DNA of 64,000 nt. Origin: Bacteroides sp. An322 (GTDB taxonomy: Bacteria > Bacteroidota > Bacteroidia > Bacteroidales > Bacteroidaceae). The DNA is taken from the NCBI RefSeq assembly GCF_002161765.1, contig NZ_NFIN01000003.1:62001-126000 (forward strand), written 5' to 3'. Positions 39,215-43,652 of the stretch are shown piece after piece. The position numbers and the translations under genes were made by a program. The stretch's first letter is position 1, and each line of letters starts with the position of its first letter. The notes under the pieces are model-generated. The model was given only the letters and a program-made list of their open reading frames with translations, was not told where the DNA came from and made no database searches.

Positions 39215-40483
39215 TTAATGTCCGAATATTCCTGAATAATCTCTCGGTTTCAATATACGCCCAAGCAGGACTGATAAGACATAATACCGTGCCGCGTCGA
39301 TGGCGTGATTATCTTTGTCCACAGGCTGGTTGATATAGTTCCCGTTCTTGTCCTTATCCCATACATAGTTACGCAGTTCTTTCTGCAAGTTGTATGACCT
39401 CCGAGTAACGAATATCTCCATGTCTTTCATCTTATCAATACCCGCCAAGATAGAGCCTTGTCCTTTCTCGGTGGCGTATATGTTCACCCCTCCGTTGTGT
39501 ATCTCCTGAATGAGGCGAGGGTCTGCACTGTCTGCATAGACATTCAATCCCCACGGGCGGAGCGACTTTACTATATCTGATGAAAGCAGGTTGGTACGGT
39601 AGTCTATCTCGTCTAAATAAAGAGCGTTATCTATTATTCCACAACGGACTGCGGCGGTACTATCGACACTATAGCCGAAGTCCAGCCCGATACCCACTTT
39701 CTTGCACCACTGGGGGAATTCATCCACAATGCCCCACTTCTTGAACACAGCACCCTCCGCCACGTCCGCCCAGCGACCTATCACCGTGTGGGCGTACTTT
39801 TCGGGATTGTCCTTTTTCATCTGCTCCACCTCTTTCAGGAACTCCGACGAAAGGTGGTCTAAGTTGTCGAAGTAGGTCGTATGGATATGCAGCACGTTGG
39901 GATGCGTGGATATTTGCACGGGAACGCCGTCAATCTCCACCAGCTTGTGCGTGTTCTCGATATACTTCTTGTAGATGAAGTGGTTACTATCCGTTGGGTT
40001 CATTATGATAATGATGCGGTTCTGAATACCCTTTTGACGGATGGAGAGCATGATTTTGTCAAAGTCCTGCTCGTTTGTCCATTCCTCCGCTTCATCGCAG
40101 ACAAAAGTCGTAATGCCGTGGATGGATTTCAGCTTTGCCGTTTGATTCCCTGATGAAGTTTTTATACCCCGGAACATAATACGCCCACCGCTTCTTCGAT
40201 TGATGATGTCCGTCTTGGTGGCACGGAAGTATTTGCCAGTTCCGTCCATCTCTATCTTCTCCATCATTTCGGGGATAATACTCATGTGGGCGGAAACCAT
40301 CGTATAACGGGAGTAAAGGATAGTGTGGGCAAACGACCTGTCAAGTGACTTCTCGAATGTTAGTCGCTCAATGAAGGCGGAAGCGTTGAAAGACTTTCCA
40401 CTGCCACGACCTCCCGTGATAAGTATGATGAATTTCTCCTTATCCGTGTAGAGTGGGGTGTATATAGCCTGGGGTTTAATCAT
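39215..40483 (-). CDS. Terminase large subunit
   Basis: 422 residues. The packaging ATPase has Walker A GGRGSGKS at residues 24-31 and Walker B TTFVCDEAEEW near 127-137; the nuclease half has GIGLDFGYSVDSTA (about 268) and DKDNHAIDAARY near the end. It belongs to the PBSX/headful-type family. It overlaps the small subunit by 8 nt. Confidence 0.95.
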   Translation of the reverse strand: MIKPQAIYTPLYTDKEKFIILITGGRGSGKSFNASAFIERLTFEKSLDRSFAHTILYSRYTMVSAHMSIIPEMMEKIEMDGTGKYFRATKTDIINRRSGGRIMFRGIKTSSGNQTAKLKSIHGITTFVCDEAEEWTNEQDFDKIMLSIRQKGIQNRIIIIMNPTDSNHFIYKKYIENTHKLVEIDGVPVQISTHPNVLHIHTTYFDNLDHLSSEFLKEVEQMKKDNPEKYAHTVIGRWADVAEGAVFKKWGIVDEFPQWCKKVGIGLDFGYSVDSTAAVRCGIIDNALYLDEIDYRTNLLSSDIVKSLRPWGLNVYADSADPRLIQEIHNGGVNIYATEKGQGSILAGIDKMKDMEIFVTRRSYNLQKELRNYVWDKDKNGNYINQPVDKDNHAIDAARYYVLSVLLGRILKPRDYSGIFGH

Positions 40484-41018
40484 TGGTGTTGTCGTTTATC
40501 CATTTCTCGATGTCAATACTTCCATTGGAGGACACATCTTCATCGTCCTCTTGCTTCTTCTCAACCTTGCGCCATTCCTCATCATGGTGGTACAGCCAAG
40601 TGGAGAGAGCCTGCATATTCGGCGGCAGTTCGGTTTCACCCTCGGTGGTTTGTATCTCTTCATCTTCGGTATAAACGCCGTCTATTTTCAGCTTCCGGGT
40701 GGTTACGGTCTTGTTCTTGATTTTCTTGCCACCCAAAGCCGCTTTGAGATATGCACCACGCACGATGGAGTTGATTTTTCGGCGACCGCGCGCTAAGACT
40801 TTAGCTAATCTGGCAGACCTGCGTTCGTTTTCCTCATCCGACCACTTATCATAGTTGCCGTTCTTCATGCAATTAAACACTTCGGGAGACAGCGAAACGC
40901 CGAACTTATCATCCAGCGCATCCGCTATCTCCGCATCGGTCAATCCCTGCATGGAGAGTGCAAGGATTTCGTCGTAGAAATCATCACTGTCGTAGTCGAA
41001 TTTCTTGGGTCTTGCCAT
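40476..41018 (-). CDS. Terminase small subunit
   Basis: 180 residues with an N-terminal helix-turn-helix-like region (EILALSMQGLTDAEIADALD) for DNA recognition, a helical basic middle and an acidic C-terminal tail that would contact the large subunit. Directly upstream of the large subunit. A small reading frame without a conventional start (41025-41306) ends 6 nt before its ATG. Confidence 0.85.
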   Translation of the reverse strand: MARPKKFDYDSDDFYDEILALSMQGLTDAEIADALDDKFGVSLSPEVFNCMKNGNYDKWSDEENERRSARLAKVLARGRRKINSIVRGAYLKAALGGKKIKNKTVTTRKLKIDGVYTEDEEIQTTEGETELPPNMQALSTWLYHHDEEWRKVEKKQEDDEDVSSNGSIDIEKWINDNTND

Positions 41019-41024
41019 AAATTG

Positions 41025-41306
41025 TTATCCGTTATTTAATCCCATGTATTGAGAGCGGGAAAATCTTATATTTGCGCTATTCTTTAAAAGAGTTTCCATC
41101 TCTTGTGTTCTCCCTTGTGCCCTTAAAGAAAGAGCCTGGCTTCTCGCGTCTCTTATTGTTCTGCTCGTCCTTATATTTTGAGCATATCTATTAAATGTAT
41201 CATTAGCTCTATTCAAACGACTATAGGTGCCCTGCAATGTTGAAGCCTGAGCATTAATTCGATTGATTTGATTTACTAAATCATTATAAGATTTACTTCT
41301 TCTGAC
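41025..41306 (-). CDS. Small basic protein A, apparent GTC start
   Basis: 93 residues if read from GTC at 41306 (VRRSKSYNDLVNQINRI... ending QYMGLNNG). There is no ATG, GTG or TTG at the conserved 5' end: the frame is closed by TGA directly before the GTC. A perfect AGGAGG (41315-41320) sits 8 nt upstream of the GTC. The protein is Arg/Asn-rich and related to frame B at both ends. It stops 6 nt before the terminase small subunit ATG. Start at GTC is my inference, tied to the GAC-anticodon tRNA-like RNA at 43540-43613; an internal TTG at 41237 would miss the conserved N-terminus. Confidence 0.65.
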   Translation of the reverse strand, partial: VRRSKSYNDLVNQINRINAQASTLQGTYSRLNRANDTFNRYAQNIRTSRTIRDARSQALSLRAQGRTQEMETLLKNSANIRFSRSQYMGLNNG

Positions 41307-41333: not shown

Positions 41334-42083
41334 TTATTCAATTCTTTCTATTTGTTCGTCAAACAGTTCTCCTTTGATAAACTTCTGATAATGGTCATAC
41401 CCGAACCGCTCACAGAAAGCCGCCTTAGCCTCCCATGTGTCAAAGGACAGCATCAGGTAAGCATCCATGTTGGCGGCTGTTTCCTGCGCCTGTTCCTTGA
41501 CCTGCTGCTTCACGTCTTTCATGTGGGCAACCTTTTCGGCACGCTCCAACTGACGGGCTGCTTTCTCGGCTTCCTTCTGCTCTGTGACGGGCTGCATCAT
41601 TTCTTCCAATGCCCCAGCTAAAGAGTTTTCTTCTTCGGTCTGCAAAAGGAAATCACAGCCTATCATGTTCAAGTCCGCATCGGTCAGACCTGCATCCTTG
41701 TAGTCAATATCAGGAACGAGACGAGCCAAAGCGTCGTAATCCCACTGACCGCCGATGTTCGGATTATTTAGGGCTATATTCAAAGACTTCTCGGTCTTTT
41801 CATCCACGTTGATAAGCTCCACACGAAGCGTGTAGTCATTCTCGTGCGTGACTTCATTGTATTTGTTCAGCTCATCCAATACAGAAACTTTTTGATGGCC
41901 TCCGACAATGGTGTAGCCCGTTGCTTGGTTTACGACTATGCCGCCGACAACGCCATACCGTTTTATGGAACGCTTCAACTGCTTGCGCCCCTCGTCCGAT
42001 ATGGTACGCGGATTGTAAGACGCTGGCTTTATCTGCGAGCGTCTTAGCTCCACCGACTTGCTGTTGAAATACTTATTATCCAT
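41334..42083 (-). CDS. ParB/Srx-like N-terminal domain protein (IbrB-like)
   Basis: 249 residues. The N-terminal ParB-like fold is seen in ELRRSQIKPASYNPRTISDE and GGIVVNQATGYTIVGGHQKV (about residues 45-66); the C-terminal half is charged coiled coil plus a small domain (MLSFDTWEAKAAFCERFGY). It is two genes from a PAPS-reductase-like gene; the same two families occur together as ibrA/ibrB in an E. coli prophage. Role unknown, perhaps regulation or DNA modification. Its ATG is overlapped by the stop of small frame B. Confidence 0.8.
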   Translation of the reverse strand: MDNKYFNSKSVELRRSQIKPASYNPRTISDEGRKQLKRSIKRYGVVGGIVVNQATGYTIVGGHQKVSVLDELNKYNEVTHENDYTLRVELINVDEKTEKSLNIALNNPNIGGQWDYDALARLVPDIDYKDAGLTDADLNMIGCDFLLQTEEENSLAGALEEMMQPVTEQKEAEKAARQLERAEKVAHMKDVKQQVKEQAQETAANMDAYLMLSFDTWEAKAAFCERFGYDHYQKFIKGELFDEQIERIE

Positions 42084-42285
42084 TACTCAATCCCATATAC
42101 TGCCGACGGGTGTATCTTGTACTGGCATTACCACCGTCATTAATTCTTGATATATTCAAAGAATAATTGGTATATGCTCTGTTAGCTACGCTGGCACGTC
42201 TTGAAGAAACCGAAGTATTTGCCATTATTCGGTTATATTGATTTCTCAAATCATTTTGACTTTTTGTTCTAACTCGTGTTCTAAC
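42076..42285 (-). CDS. Small basic protein B, apparent GTT start
   Basis: 69 residues if read from GTT at 42285 (VRTRVRTKSQNDLRNQYNRI... ending RQYMGLSNG). AGGAGG lies 8 nt upstream. No AUG-type start exists before an internal ATG about 20 codons in. GAGTTAGAACA occurs twice in frame (GTT at 42285 and 42273). It aligns with frame A at the N-terminus (KSxNDLxNQxNRI) and at the end (QYMGLxNG). Its stop overlaps the ParB-like ATG, so translation of the two is probably coupled. Confidence 0.6.
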   Translation of the reverse strand, partial: VRTRVRTKSQNDLRNQYNRIMANTSVSSRRASVANRAYTNYSLNISRINDGGNASTRYTRRQYMGLSNG

Positions 42286-42300: not shown

Positions 42301-42975
42301 TTAGTTTTGTTTGTTATGATACTCCCATAATATCCGCTCTGAAAGCGGAAACACTTTGTAAATACGTTGCAAGTCCTGCGGATAGTTCTTCTCCAGCCAA
42401 AGCATACAATCGAGGTTAAATCCGACGCCTGAACTGGCTTTGAGTGAGTAACGTACCGGTTCGGGAAGATTGTGCTGCTTCATGTATGATAGCACGTCTT
42501 TCTGGGTCCAGTCAGCCAAGGGGTAGCACATTCCGTTGTTCTCGTACCCATTGGCTTCATATCCTTTCAGCATCAAACGCCTGTTCATGCCATCGGCTTT
42601 CTTCATGCCCAAAAATGCGTAATGTATGCCGTATTTAAGCTGCATCGCATTGACCACATCCGCCAGCTTCAACAGCTTCACCTTTGAATTAGGCACGCAA
42701 TACAAGCCACTGCGAAGAATGTAAGTCAGGTTCCAGTGCGGTACTTCGACAAACTCAATCTTCGGGTATCTGGCTTTCACCCATCCAATCCAGCGGTCTA
42801 TGTGTTCAAGATGTTGAACAAAGAACATAAACACGCACACTATGCGTTCAAATTTCGGATAAAGCATATCAAGCAAGACCAAACTATCCTTACCAAGAGA
42901 GCAAAAGAGTATCGCGCTGTCAGACTTACACCTGATAGCGTCAATACTCTTGTATGTTCTTTCTTGCAGCGTCAT
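42301..42975 (-). CDS. PAPS-reductase-family (PP-loop) protein, IbrA-like
   Basis: 224 residues. The nucleotide-binding PP-loop is FCSLGKDSLVLL (Ser26-Ser31), with GMKKADGMNRRL and a CYPLADWTQKDVLSYM segment typical of the phosphoadenosine phosphosulfate reductase superfamily. The family covers sulfate reduction, tRNA thiolation and DndC-type DNA phosphorothioation; no 4Fe-4S Cys cluster is evident. Paired with the ParB-like gene, as in ibrAB. Small frame C ends 2 nt before its ATG. Confidence 0.85.
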   Translation of the reverse strand: MTLQERTYKSIDAIRCKSDSAILFCSLGKDSLVLLDMLYPKFERIVCVFMFFVQHLEHIDRWIGWVKARYPKIEFVEVPHWNLTYILRSGLYCVPNSKVKLLKLADVVNAMQLKYGIHYAFLGMKKADGMNRRLMLKGYEANGYENNGMCYPLADWTQKDVLSYMKQHNLPEPVRYSLKASSGVGFNLDCMLWLEKNYPQDLQRIYKVFPLSERILWEYHNKQN

Positions 42976-42977
42976 GG

Positions 42978-43136
42978 TTAGCCACCCGATAAGCCTAAAC
43001 CTGTACGAATGTTGCGATACTGCTGTTGTCGGGTGATGTAACGTCCACCCTGCGATAATCTGCCGGTAGTGGGGTCTGTCAAACCTTGGCGACCACCACG
43101 ATAACCGCTGCTTGAATAAGTAGTCCTTCTTCTGAC
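42978..43136 (-). CDS. Small basic protein C, apparent GTC start
   Basis: 52 residues from GTC at 43136 (VRRRTTYSSSGYRGGRQGLT... ending GLGLSGG). Sixteen bases at its 5' end, 43126-43141, are identical to those at 41296-41311 of frame A (minus strand: GCTGAGTCAGAAGAAG). A TGA lies directly before the GTC in both. The Shine-Dalgarno match here is weak (GAAGG). It is followed within 2 nt by the PAPS-reductase-like gene. Confidence 0.55.
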   Translation of the reverse strand, partial: VRRRTTYSSSGYRGGRQGLTDPTTGRLSQGGRYITRQQQYRNIRTGLGLSGG

Positions 43137-43155: not shown

Positions 43156-43515
43156 TTAAACATGTTTATCTATCACTATGCCCAAGTCGTAAACGACCTG
43201 CGCTGCCAAATATGGTTCACCGTTATACTCGTACTCGATGAGGTTGTGATTTTCGTCCTCAAAGAGTTCTATGCGTGCATCTTTGACTTCTACCAGTGCG
43301 CTTGCCCTGTCTTTGTTGTATCCAACATAGAACCGGATAGCGTCATACTTGCGTGGTATCAAAATACCATCTTCTTCTTTGCAGTAGCCTTCTTCGTCCA
43401 GTTCGCAATACTTCTTCTGTGTATTTGGACGAATCTCACGAAACTCTTGTGTTTTCGTGCCTGCTAAGATTTCATCAAAATACTTCTGTTTGATGATGAG
43501 TGTCAAAATGTTCAT
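43156..43515 (-). CDS. ASCH domain protein
   Basis: 119 residues. The ASCH (PUA-like) fold is indicated by ILTLIIKQKYFDEILAGTKT followed by EFREIRP and the strand YDAIRFYVGYNKDRASALVE. The family is thought to bind RNA or modified nucleosides; some members are nucleases or deaminases acting on nucleosides. It begins 24 nt downstream of the initiator-tRNA-like RNA, with the recurrent ACACGATT-ATG start context, so an action on that RNA is an attractive inference. Confidence 0.82.
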   Translation of the reverse strand: MNILTLIIKQKYFDEILAGTKTQEFREIRPNTQKKYCELDEEGYCKEEDGILIPRKYDAIRFYVGYNKDRASALVEVKDARIELFEDENHNLIEYEYNGEPYLAAQVVYDLGIVIDKHV

Positions 43516-43539: not shown

Positions 43540-43613
43540 TTGCGGGGGCTGGCTCTGCCCCAGCGGTCTCTACCAAGTCAAAGTAGCGAGATGACTGACT
43601 TCTCTACCCCGCG
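43540..43613 (-). tRNA. Initiator-tRNA-like cloverleaf with GAC anticodon
   Basis: 74 nt, all four stems form. C1 is unpaired opposite A72, the signature of bacterial initiator tRNA; GCGGGG (2-7) pairs with CCCCGC; U8 and A9 follow; the D-stem is GAGA/TCTC with loop AGTCAGTCA; the anticodon stem is CTACT/GGTAG with loop TTGACTT (anticodon GAC, reading GUC and GUU); the variable loop is AGACC; the T-stem is GCTGG/CCAGC. Oddities: the T-loop is GGCAGAG rather than TTCRANT, the D-loop lacks GG, position 37 is U, and the three G-C pairs of initiator anticodon stems are missing. It could instead be a tRNA mimic in the ASCH leader. The structure is firm, the role is inferred. Confidence 0.8.
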
Positions 43614-43626
43614 ATAATACATGCCT

Positions 43627-43652
43627 CAAAGTTACTTCTACGAACAAAGATA
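43627..43652 (-). promoter_or_regulatory. -7 boxes upstream of the tRNA-like RNA
   Basis: TATCTTTG (43645-43652) and TAACTTTG (43627-43634) on the minus strand both match TAnnTTTG and lie 14-40 nt before the RNA. Clear -33 elements are lacking. Confidence 0.5.

Follow-up and report, generated by a model that had tools for sequence, protein, structure and literature searches.

A small RNA encoded in Bacteroides sp. An322 is very probably a phage-encoded second initiator tRNA, probably charged with valine and provided with a private start codon, GUC or GUU. It lies on the minus strand of the window (the whole stretch of 64,000 nucleotides that was analysed), upstream of a row of genes of which three, here called S1, S2 and S3, open with GTC or GTT (Table 1), and on comparison of the sequences it is a member of a conserved tRNA family of gut Bacteroides phages. 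From comparison across these phages come selection on the structure of the tRNA, the GTC and GTT starts (collectively GTY), purifying selection on the open reading frames that follow them, co-occurrence of tRNA and genes, and co-variation of anticodon and start codon. The sequence-only reading, which took the RNA for a strongly remodelled initiator, or a mimic of one, that would read GUC and GUU, is supported by the kept cloverleaf, the initiator marks and the restricted anticodon.

Table 1. Positions in the window of the tRNA, the upstream boxes and the genes of the row
Feature	Positions	Strand	Start and other properties
Second TAnnTTTG box, TATCTTTG	43645..43652	-	
TAnnTTTG box, TAACTTTG	43627..43634	-	21-14 nt before the tRNA 5' end
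Initiator-like tRNA	43540..43613	-	Anticodon GAC at 43577-43579; C1xA72; discriminator A73; loop UUGACUU with U37; U31.G39
ASCH-like protein	43156..43515	-	ATG start; phrog_625, E 1.2e-21; Pfam ASCH, E 0.0086, below the Pfam cut-off
S1, 52 aa Arg-rich protein	42978..43136	-	GTC start (43136) right after in-frame TGA; GGCTGA-GTCAGA
PAPS-reductase-domain protein	42301..42975	-	ATG start
S2, 69 aa basic protein	42076..42285	-	GTT start (42285), second GTT at 42273; AGGAGG 42299-42294; GCCGA-GTTAGA
ParB-like protein	41334..42083	-	ATG start
S3, 93 aa basic protein, predicted helical	41025..41306	-	GTC start (41306) right after in-frame TGA; AGGAGG 41320-41315; GCTGA-GTCAGA
Terminase small subunit	40476..41018	-	ATG start; phrog_309; next gene of the row
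Terminase large subunit	39215..40483	-	74.2% identical in DNA to its annotated counterpart in phage BS-TP2

The tRNA and its relatives

Direct reading of 43613..43540 bears out the complete minus-strand cloverleaf, with C1 opposite A72 and the anticodon GAC, that had been described from the letters alone (CGCGGGG-TA-GAGA-AGTCAGTCA-TCTC-G-CTACT-TTGACTT-GGTAG-AGACC-GCTGG-GGCAGAG-CCAGC-CCCCGC-A-A), and the unusual D- and T-loops and the anticodon stem without GGG/CCC are likewise confirmed in the sequence. Taken alone the RNA is weak, as ARAGORN misses it, Rfam RF00005 gives no match to it even at E<=10 and its folding energy does not stand out (z -1.37; 21 of 200 shuffles equally good), so that it is through conservation in relatives that it stands out beyond chance. 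A model built from 22 copies scores it at 84 bits (E 1.7e-19), a value that is high by construction, since those 22 include the window copy. Among six relative loci given to RF00005, four matched at 50-57 bits and two (L246 and L313) were unmatched.

Structural conservation was assessed in an alignment of 22 distinct tRNA copies, picked by the author from unique sequences. Bases are paired in 438 of the 440 stem cells (99.5%), and two-sided changes occur in 12 of the 20 pairs and in all four stems; the covariation score is 0.552 vs 0.169 after shuffling, the observed value being reached by none of 500 shuffles and abolished by sliding the stem partners. Whether homologues keep the cloverleaf had been set as a test of the initiator reading, and in these 22 tRNAs they do so through compensatory changes. 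Conservation and covariation rule out a chance hairpin, and a decayed tRNA or integration remnant is ruled out by the synteny, the compensated stems and the kept starts of S1 to S3. Altered D- and T-loops are found among the 22 aligned tRNAs only in the window type and in L297, whose T-stems show a compensated difference (GCTGG:CCAGC in the window vs GCAGG:CCTGC); recurrence of the same loops beside a compensated T-stem led us to reject decay of the loops of the window copy. The remodelling noticed earlier is in part a trait of the family, namely the anticodon stem (U31.G39, with C30:G40 in the GAC group), and in part local, the D- and T-loop changes being limited to these two types.

The pairs G2:C71, C3:G70, G4:C69 and A11:U24, which are formylation determinants of bacterial initiator tRNA, are present in all 22 tRNAs. 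Position 1x72 is unpaired in 21 of the 22 though its bases change: the expected C1:A72 is kept as C.A in most relatives, and C.U, C.C or U.U, or once a weak U-A (L319), stands in the others. A mismatch here, A11:U24 and the acceptor pairs of tRNA-fMet together make up the initiator design. U31.G39 and U37 are constant throughout (22/22), and the three consecutive G:C pairs 29-31:39-41 are lost from every copy, 30:40 being C:G in 19 and G:C in 3. Among the loci found the anticodon is not CAU, nor does it vary freely, as it might have done had the initiator reading been wrong: one group has GAC and a second has AAC.

ARAGORN labels several relatives tRNA-Val(gac) or tRNA-Val(aac), a call that would suit a valine elongator or a decoy, supplementing the decoding of GUY codons or dodging tRNA-cleaving defences as has been proposed for other phage tRNAs; one report connects changes in the anticodon loops of phage tRNAs with evasion of defences that target tRNA (PMC10264068). 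We consider such a role very unlikely, since the 1x72 mismatch persists through base changes, with A11:U24 and acceptor pairs of the fMet type alongside it, and since an elongator or decoy predicts neither genes starting with GTC or GTT nor co-variation of anticodon and start codon.

The spread of the putative initiator was followed by pattern scans. A first scan with free loops gave nine viral contigs, all with the cloverleaf and seven with an ordinary TTCGA T-loop; later scans gave 16 and then 26 contigs with GAC, and 19 contigs of the second group with AAC. The anticodon loop was fixed in every pattern, and the contig lists of the scans overlap. The tRNA is also carried by the isolated phage BS-TP2 and by five contigs in a collection of one genome per species (84,980 species). 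Among the matches listed from the loci collected up to an anticodon-open viral scan, 83 have CGCGGGG ends, 53 of them with CTCATAA and 30 without; by reading, the GAC family accounts for 13 of those 30 listed matches (the copy in the window among them) and other CAT loops for 16, and one (L035) is ambiguous. A corrected anticodon-free pattern, which cannot match the window's own copy, matched three of 399 genomes of the bacterial family, two of them real (both GAC) and one by chance; as a measure of the chance level, a pattern one base short in the anticodon arm matched 17 viral stretches and 3 of the 399 genomes. With only two real matches in 399 genomes of the family, the tRNA is rare there and looks phage-borne, not a host gene.

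Other tRNA-like sequences were seen in these phages. Some of the AAC phages carry a second tRNA-like RNA (L325:3942-4011, L321:6824-6890, L320:7205-7272), scored at 46-53 bits by the tRNA family model, in which the anticodon arm is a short hairpin (CCGC-ATA-GCGG, CCGTC-ACAT-GACGG) and the D-arm is similar to those of the window and L297 tRNAs. A weaker tRNA-like match (30.1 bits) lies in phage BS-TP2 at L372:13732-13813. A record titled as a Lachnospira MAG (L241) has the same tRNA and S1 as the viral contig L009 and is probably a mis-binned Bacteroides phage contig.

Genes that open with GTC or GTT

The ASCH gene follows the tRNA by 24 nt (43540 vs 43515), and from this placement directly before it the tRNA could well head, as its first cistron, the row that it serves. 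The TAnnTTTG boxes before the tRNA are presumably of the Bacteroides -7 promoter type, and TAnnTTTG occurs within ~60 nt in 27 of 36 unique upstream stretches vs 2.6 expected from mononucleotide shuffles. The three neighbouring GTC and GTT starts that the sequence-only reading had pointed out are present, and no in-frame ATG, GTG or TTG lies upstream of them. An AGGAGG stands 8 nt before the GTT of S2 and the GTC of S3, which is odd in a setting where ribosomes are described, in passages of a report on Bacteroidia, as not using Shine-Dalgarno sequences (PMC9976891). The AlphaFold2 model of S3, made from a 12-row alignment, is helical (pLDDT 82.3) and has no PDB and no BFVD match at E<=0.001, the best BFVD match being an uncharacterised siphovirus protein at E 0.014. 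Three S2/S3 proteins compared with phage records by tblastn gave nothing better than E 2, and the ASCH protein had no match among PDB sequences.

A search with one S1 protein was blind both to the tRNA and to the third base of the start codon; its query was of the L280 type and not the window's S1, which belongs to another subfamily. It returned 40 viral loci, all of which have a GTC or GTT start after GA and none of which has an in-frame ATG, GTG or TTG upstream. For L317, where the match set in downstream of it, the start was assigned by eye; this contig, as L245, reads ccga-GTC. The family model found the tRNA in 39 of the 40 loci, the exception (L311) having only 503 nt upstream, and by reading these tRNAs are 28 GAC and 11 AAC (L319-L329).

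GA occupies positions -2 and -1 at 40 of 40 S1 starts vs 6 of 213 ATG-starting frames (2.8%), a set called mechanically at >=150 aa from 30 loci of these phages, BS-TP2 pieces included, in which the -1 base is T in 48% and A in 32%. As GA before the codon was itself a search condition in the counts of unique frames, of 94 loci and of pN/pS given below, only the 40-locus S1 search is free of GA bias. In the two S1 orthologues with an ATG start the -1 base is T. A pair between A at -1 and U37 of the tRNA is likely, because U37 replaces the purine of ordinary tRNAs; it would mirror the U-1:A37 pair discussed for normal initiation. An extension of the mRNA-loop pairing past -1 and -2 was considered and rejected: C is found at -4 in both groups and would face position 40, which is G in the GAC group but C in the AAC group, so that the claim is limited to A-1:U37 and perhaps G-2.U38.

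The frames opened by GTY are, to judge from their coding constraint, real genes under purifying selection, with a median pN/pS of 0.225 over 80 pairs of the same length, >60% identical and with >=8 differences. Mean net charge per residue is +0.18 for S1 and +0.15 for S2/S3. In phage BS-TP2, gp53 (L246:6567-6761) is annotated from an internal ATG, and the conserved frame reaches back to a GTC after CTGA, so that the gene as deposited is apparently cut short. When BS-TP2 and the window were scanned blindly for long frames opening at a codon after GA, the result was unspecific (GTC 6 and GTT 4 vs AGA 13 and ATT 10), and the case thus rests on conservation.

This constraint bears on the idea that the RNA is a tRNA-shaped leader element for processing or regulation and that GTY belongs to a conserved RNA motif, the true starts lying elsewhere or being reached by frameshift. 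The short distance from tRNA to ASCH gene would fit a leader, as would the conservation of the start motif GCTGA-GTY past the codon. However, the constrained frames are those that open at GTY itself; in the GTT cases the frame of the preceding CTG, TTG or CCG meets a stop, the TGA before GTY becomes CGA or AGA in relatives, and the ATG-starting orthologue (L335 type) starts four residues before the aligned GTT start. A leader need not co-vary with codon position 3 either, and we regard this idea as the least probable of the alternatives considered.

Outside these phages, the gene row recurs in an outgroup, Riemerella phage CRP5, with a small basic frame in the place of S1, S1-like by position and with an ATG start, and 16.3 kb of its 46.7 kb gave no tRNA match. 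A second relative by terminase, MT835636, gave no tRNA match in 17.4 kb, and no S1-like frame was seen there. At L008 the tRNA is present and S1 absent; the sequence passes from within ASCH into terminase, so the intervening stretch appears deleted. The L008 tRNA is unmatched by the regular expression of the start-codon counts and was left out of them.

Anticodon and start codon together

By the decoding rules, GAC reads C and U in the third codon position and AAC reads U. In 94 tRNA-bearing loci, many of them overlapping and so redundant, GAC occurs with GTC in 59 and with GTT in 2, three further sequences (L222, L283, L244) ending too soon for a start codon, and AAC occurs with GTT in 24, with ATG in 6 and with GTC in none. 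Counted as unique frames, the GAC group has 43 GTC and 13 GTT and the AAC group 0 GTC and 9 GTT (Fisher p 1.6e-5, a value that ignores descent); among these 13, L292 at +1848 appears spurious and is left out of the pN/pS set. Two AAC-group frames begin with GTA (L319 at +1523, L335 at +2259) and were taken, without proof, as spurious, and one GTC under AAC (L324) is an inner codon with GTT ahead in a longer frame; the GTY starts of small genes in that group are GTT and never GTC. S1 starts with ATG despite the tRNA in 6 of the 19 AAC contigs (L334, L347; L335, L339, L343, L345), which represent two distinct genes; L335 and L339 hold another GTT frame, and L334 and L347 none in their short stretch.

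On a tree of 40 ASCH protein rows the anticodon changes at least three times, with AAC rows in three places, on a topology whose bootstrap is not fully settled, in which L334, L335 and L341 sit on long branches and exchange between phages is possible. The 21 start contexts placed on this tree are 15 GTC, 5 GTT and the ccga-GTC of L317, and three small-protein families, defined by eye, occur with both anticodons. The phage contigs are related and the counts are thus not independent. Apparently, the phages have re-tuned anticodon and start codon jointly several times.

These patterns also weigh on the proposal that the GTY starts are real but are read as near-cognates by the host CAU initiator, the phage tRNA serving some other purpose. 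A precedent is the GTC start reported for Streptomyces sigR in an excerpt of PMC5472188, and an AGGAGG lies 8 nt before some GTY starts, those of S2 and S3 in the window among them. Initiation driven by AGGAGG is at odds with the reported lack of Shine-Dalgarno use by Bacteroidia ribosomes (PMC9976891, in part), and reading by the host initiator leaves unexplained the tRNA in 39 of 40 S1 loci, the absence of GTG at such starts, the shift between GTC and GTT with the anticodon and the -1 A opposite U37. We accordingly give this proposal very little credence.

A candidate second start system and its known counterparts

Transcription, charging, formylation, ribosomal use and regulation of the phage tRNA are steps that we infer. 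The tRNA would derive from a host-type initiator, retaining the tRNA-fMet body, with the anticodon arm rebuilt for GUC, and for GUU by wobble. It would be transcribed from its own promoter, heading the row ASCH-S1-PAPS reductase-S2-ParB-S3-terminase, and be charged by the host valyl-tRNA synthetase through A35, C36 and A73, which are present in 22 of 22 tRNAs, so that valine and not methionine is the likely amino acid. The determinants given for bacterial ValRS in parts of PMC9976931 are A35, C36 and A73 plus the acceptor pairs G3-C70 and U4-A69; the acceptor determinants are absent from the phage tRNAs, in which 3:70 is C-G and 4:69 is G-C. The Val-tRNA would then be formylated and carried to the P site by IF2, the anticodon would pair with the GUC or GUU that opens S1, S2 and S3, and the A before the codon could contribute a fourth pair through the unusual U37. 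Synthesis of the small basic proteins, with (formyl-)valine as first residue, would then be confined to cells that contain the phage tRNA. With moderate confidence we favour this complete scheme, a private second initiation code in which an operon-leading Val-tRNA, by four-base pairing (A-1:U37 plus GUC or GUU), would be the sole opener of the GUY genes and would gate S1 to S3, yielding fVal proteins.

If true, a natural non-CAU initiator that co-evolves with its start codon would mean that the initiation code is open to duplication and private use, and would provide a natural orthogonal start system comparable with engineered ones. It would account for genes missed or cut short by annotation pipelines, such as BS-TP2 gp53, and would allow direct tests, in Bacteroidia, of extended codon-anticodon pairing and of whether three G:C pairs are needed. 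To our knowledge natural initiator tRNAs carry the CAU anticodon, and a literature search among open-licence papers found no natural initiator of the present kind.

The phage tRNA is like bacterial initiator tRNA-fMet (CAU) in its 1x72 mismatch, in G2:C71, C3:G70 and G4:C69 and in A11:U24, and its overall sequence is close to that of the host's own initiator (CGCGGAGTGGAGCAGTTGGTAGCTCG-TTGGG-CTCATAA-CCCAA...), from the same stock. It differs from tRNA-fMet in having GAC or AAC, U37 in place of a purine, U31.G39 and an anticodon stem that lacks the three G:C pairs. In E. coli, C30:G40 or 3GC mutants are described as impaired in P-site binding (PMC2268962, in part), and C30-G40 as relaxing discrimination against a non-canonical start codon (PMC11497404, in part). 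According to the same passages of PMC2268962, an engineered E. coli initiator with the anticodon GAC, tRNA2-fMet G34C36, is aminoacylated by ValRS and starts translation at GUC, and thus resembles the phage tRNA in placing GAC on an initiator body and starting at GUC; it is, however, a laboratory anticodon mutant, whereas the phage tRNA is natural, has a rebuilt arm and lies adjacent to matching genes. Streptomyces sigR shares with S1 to S3 a natural GTC start of a bacterial gene and differs in its reported IF3-mediated repression, the excerpt of PMC5472188 mentioning no dedicated tRNA. Phage-encoded elongator tRNAs are also tRNA genes of phage genomes, to which the phage initiator-like tRNA adds initiator features and matching start codons.
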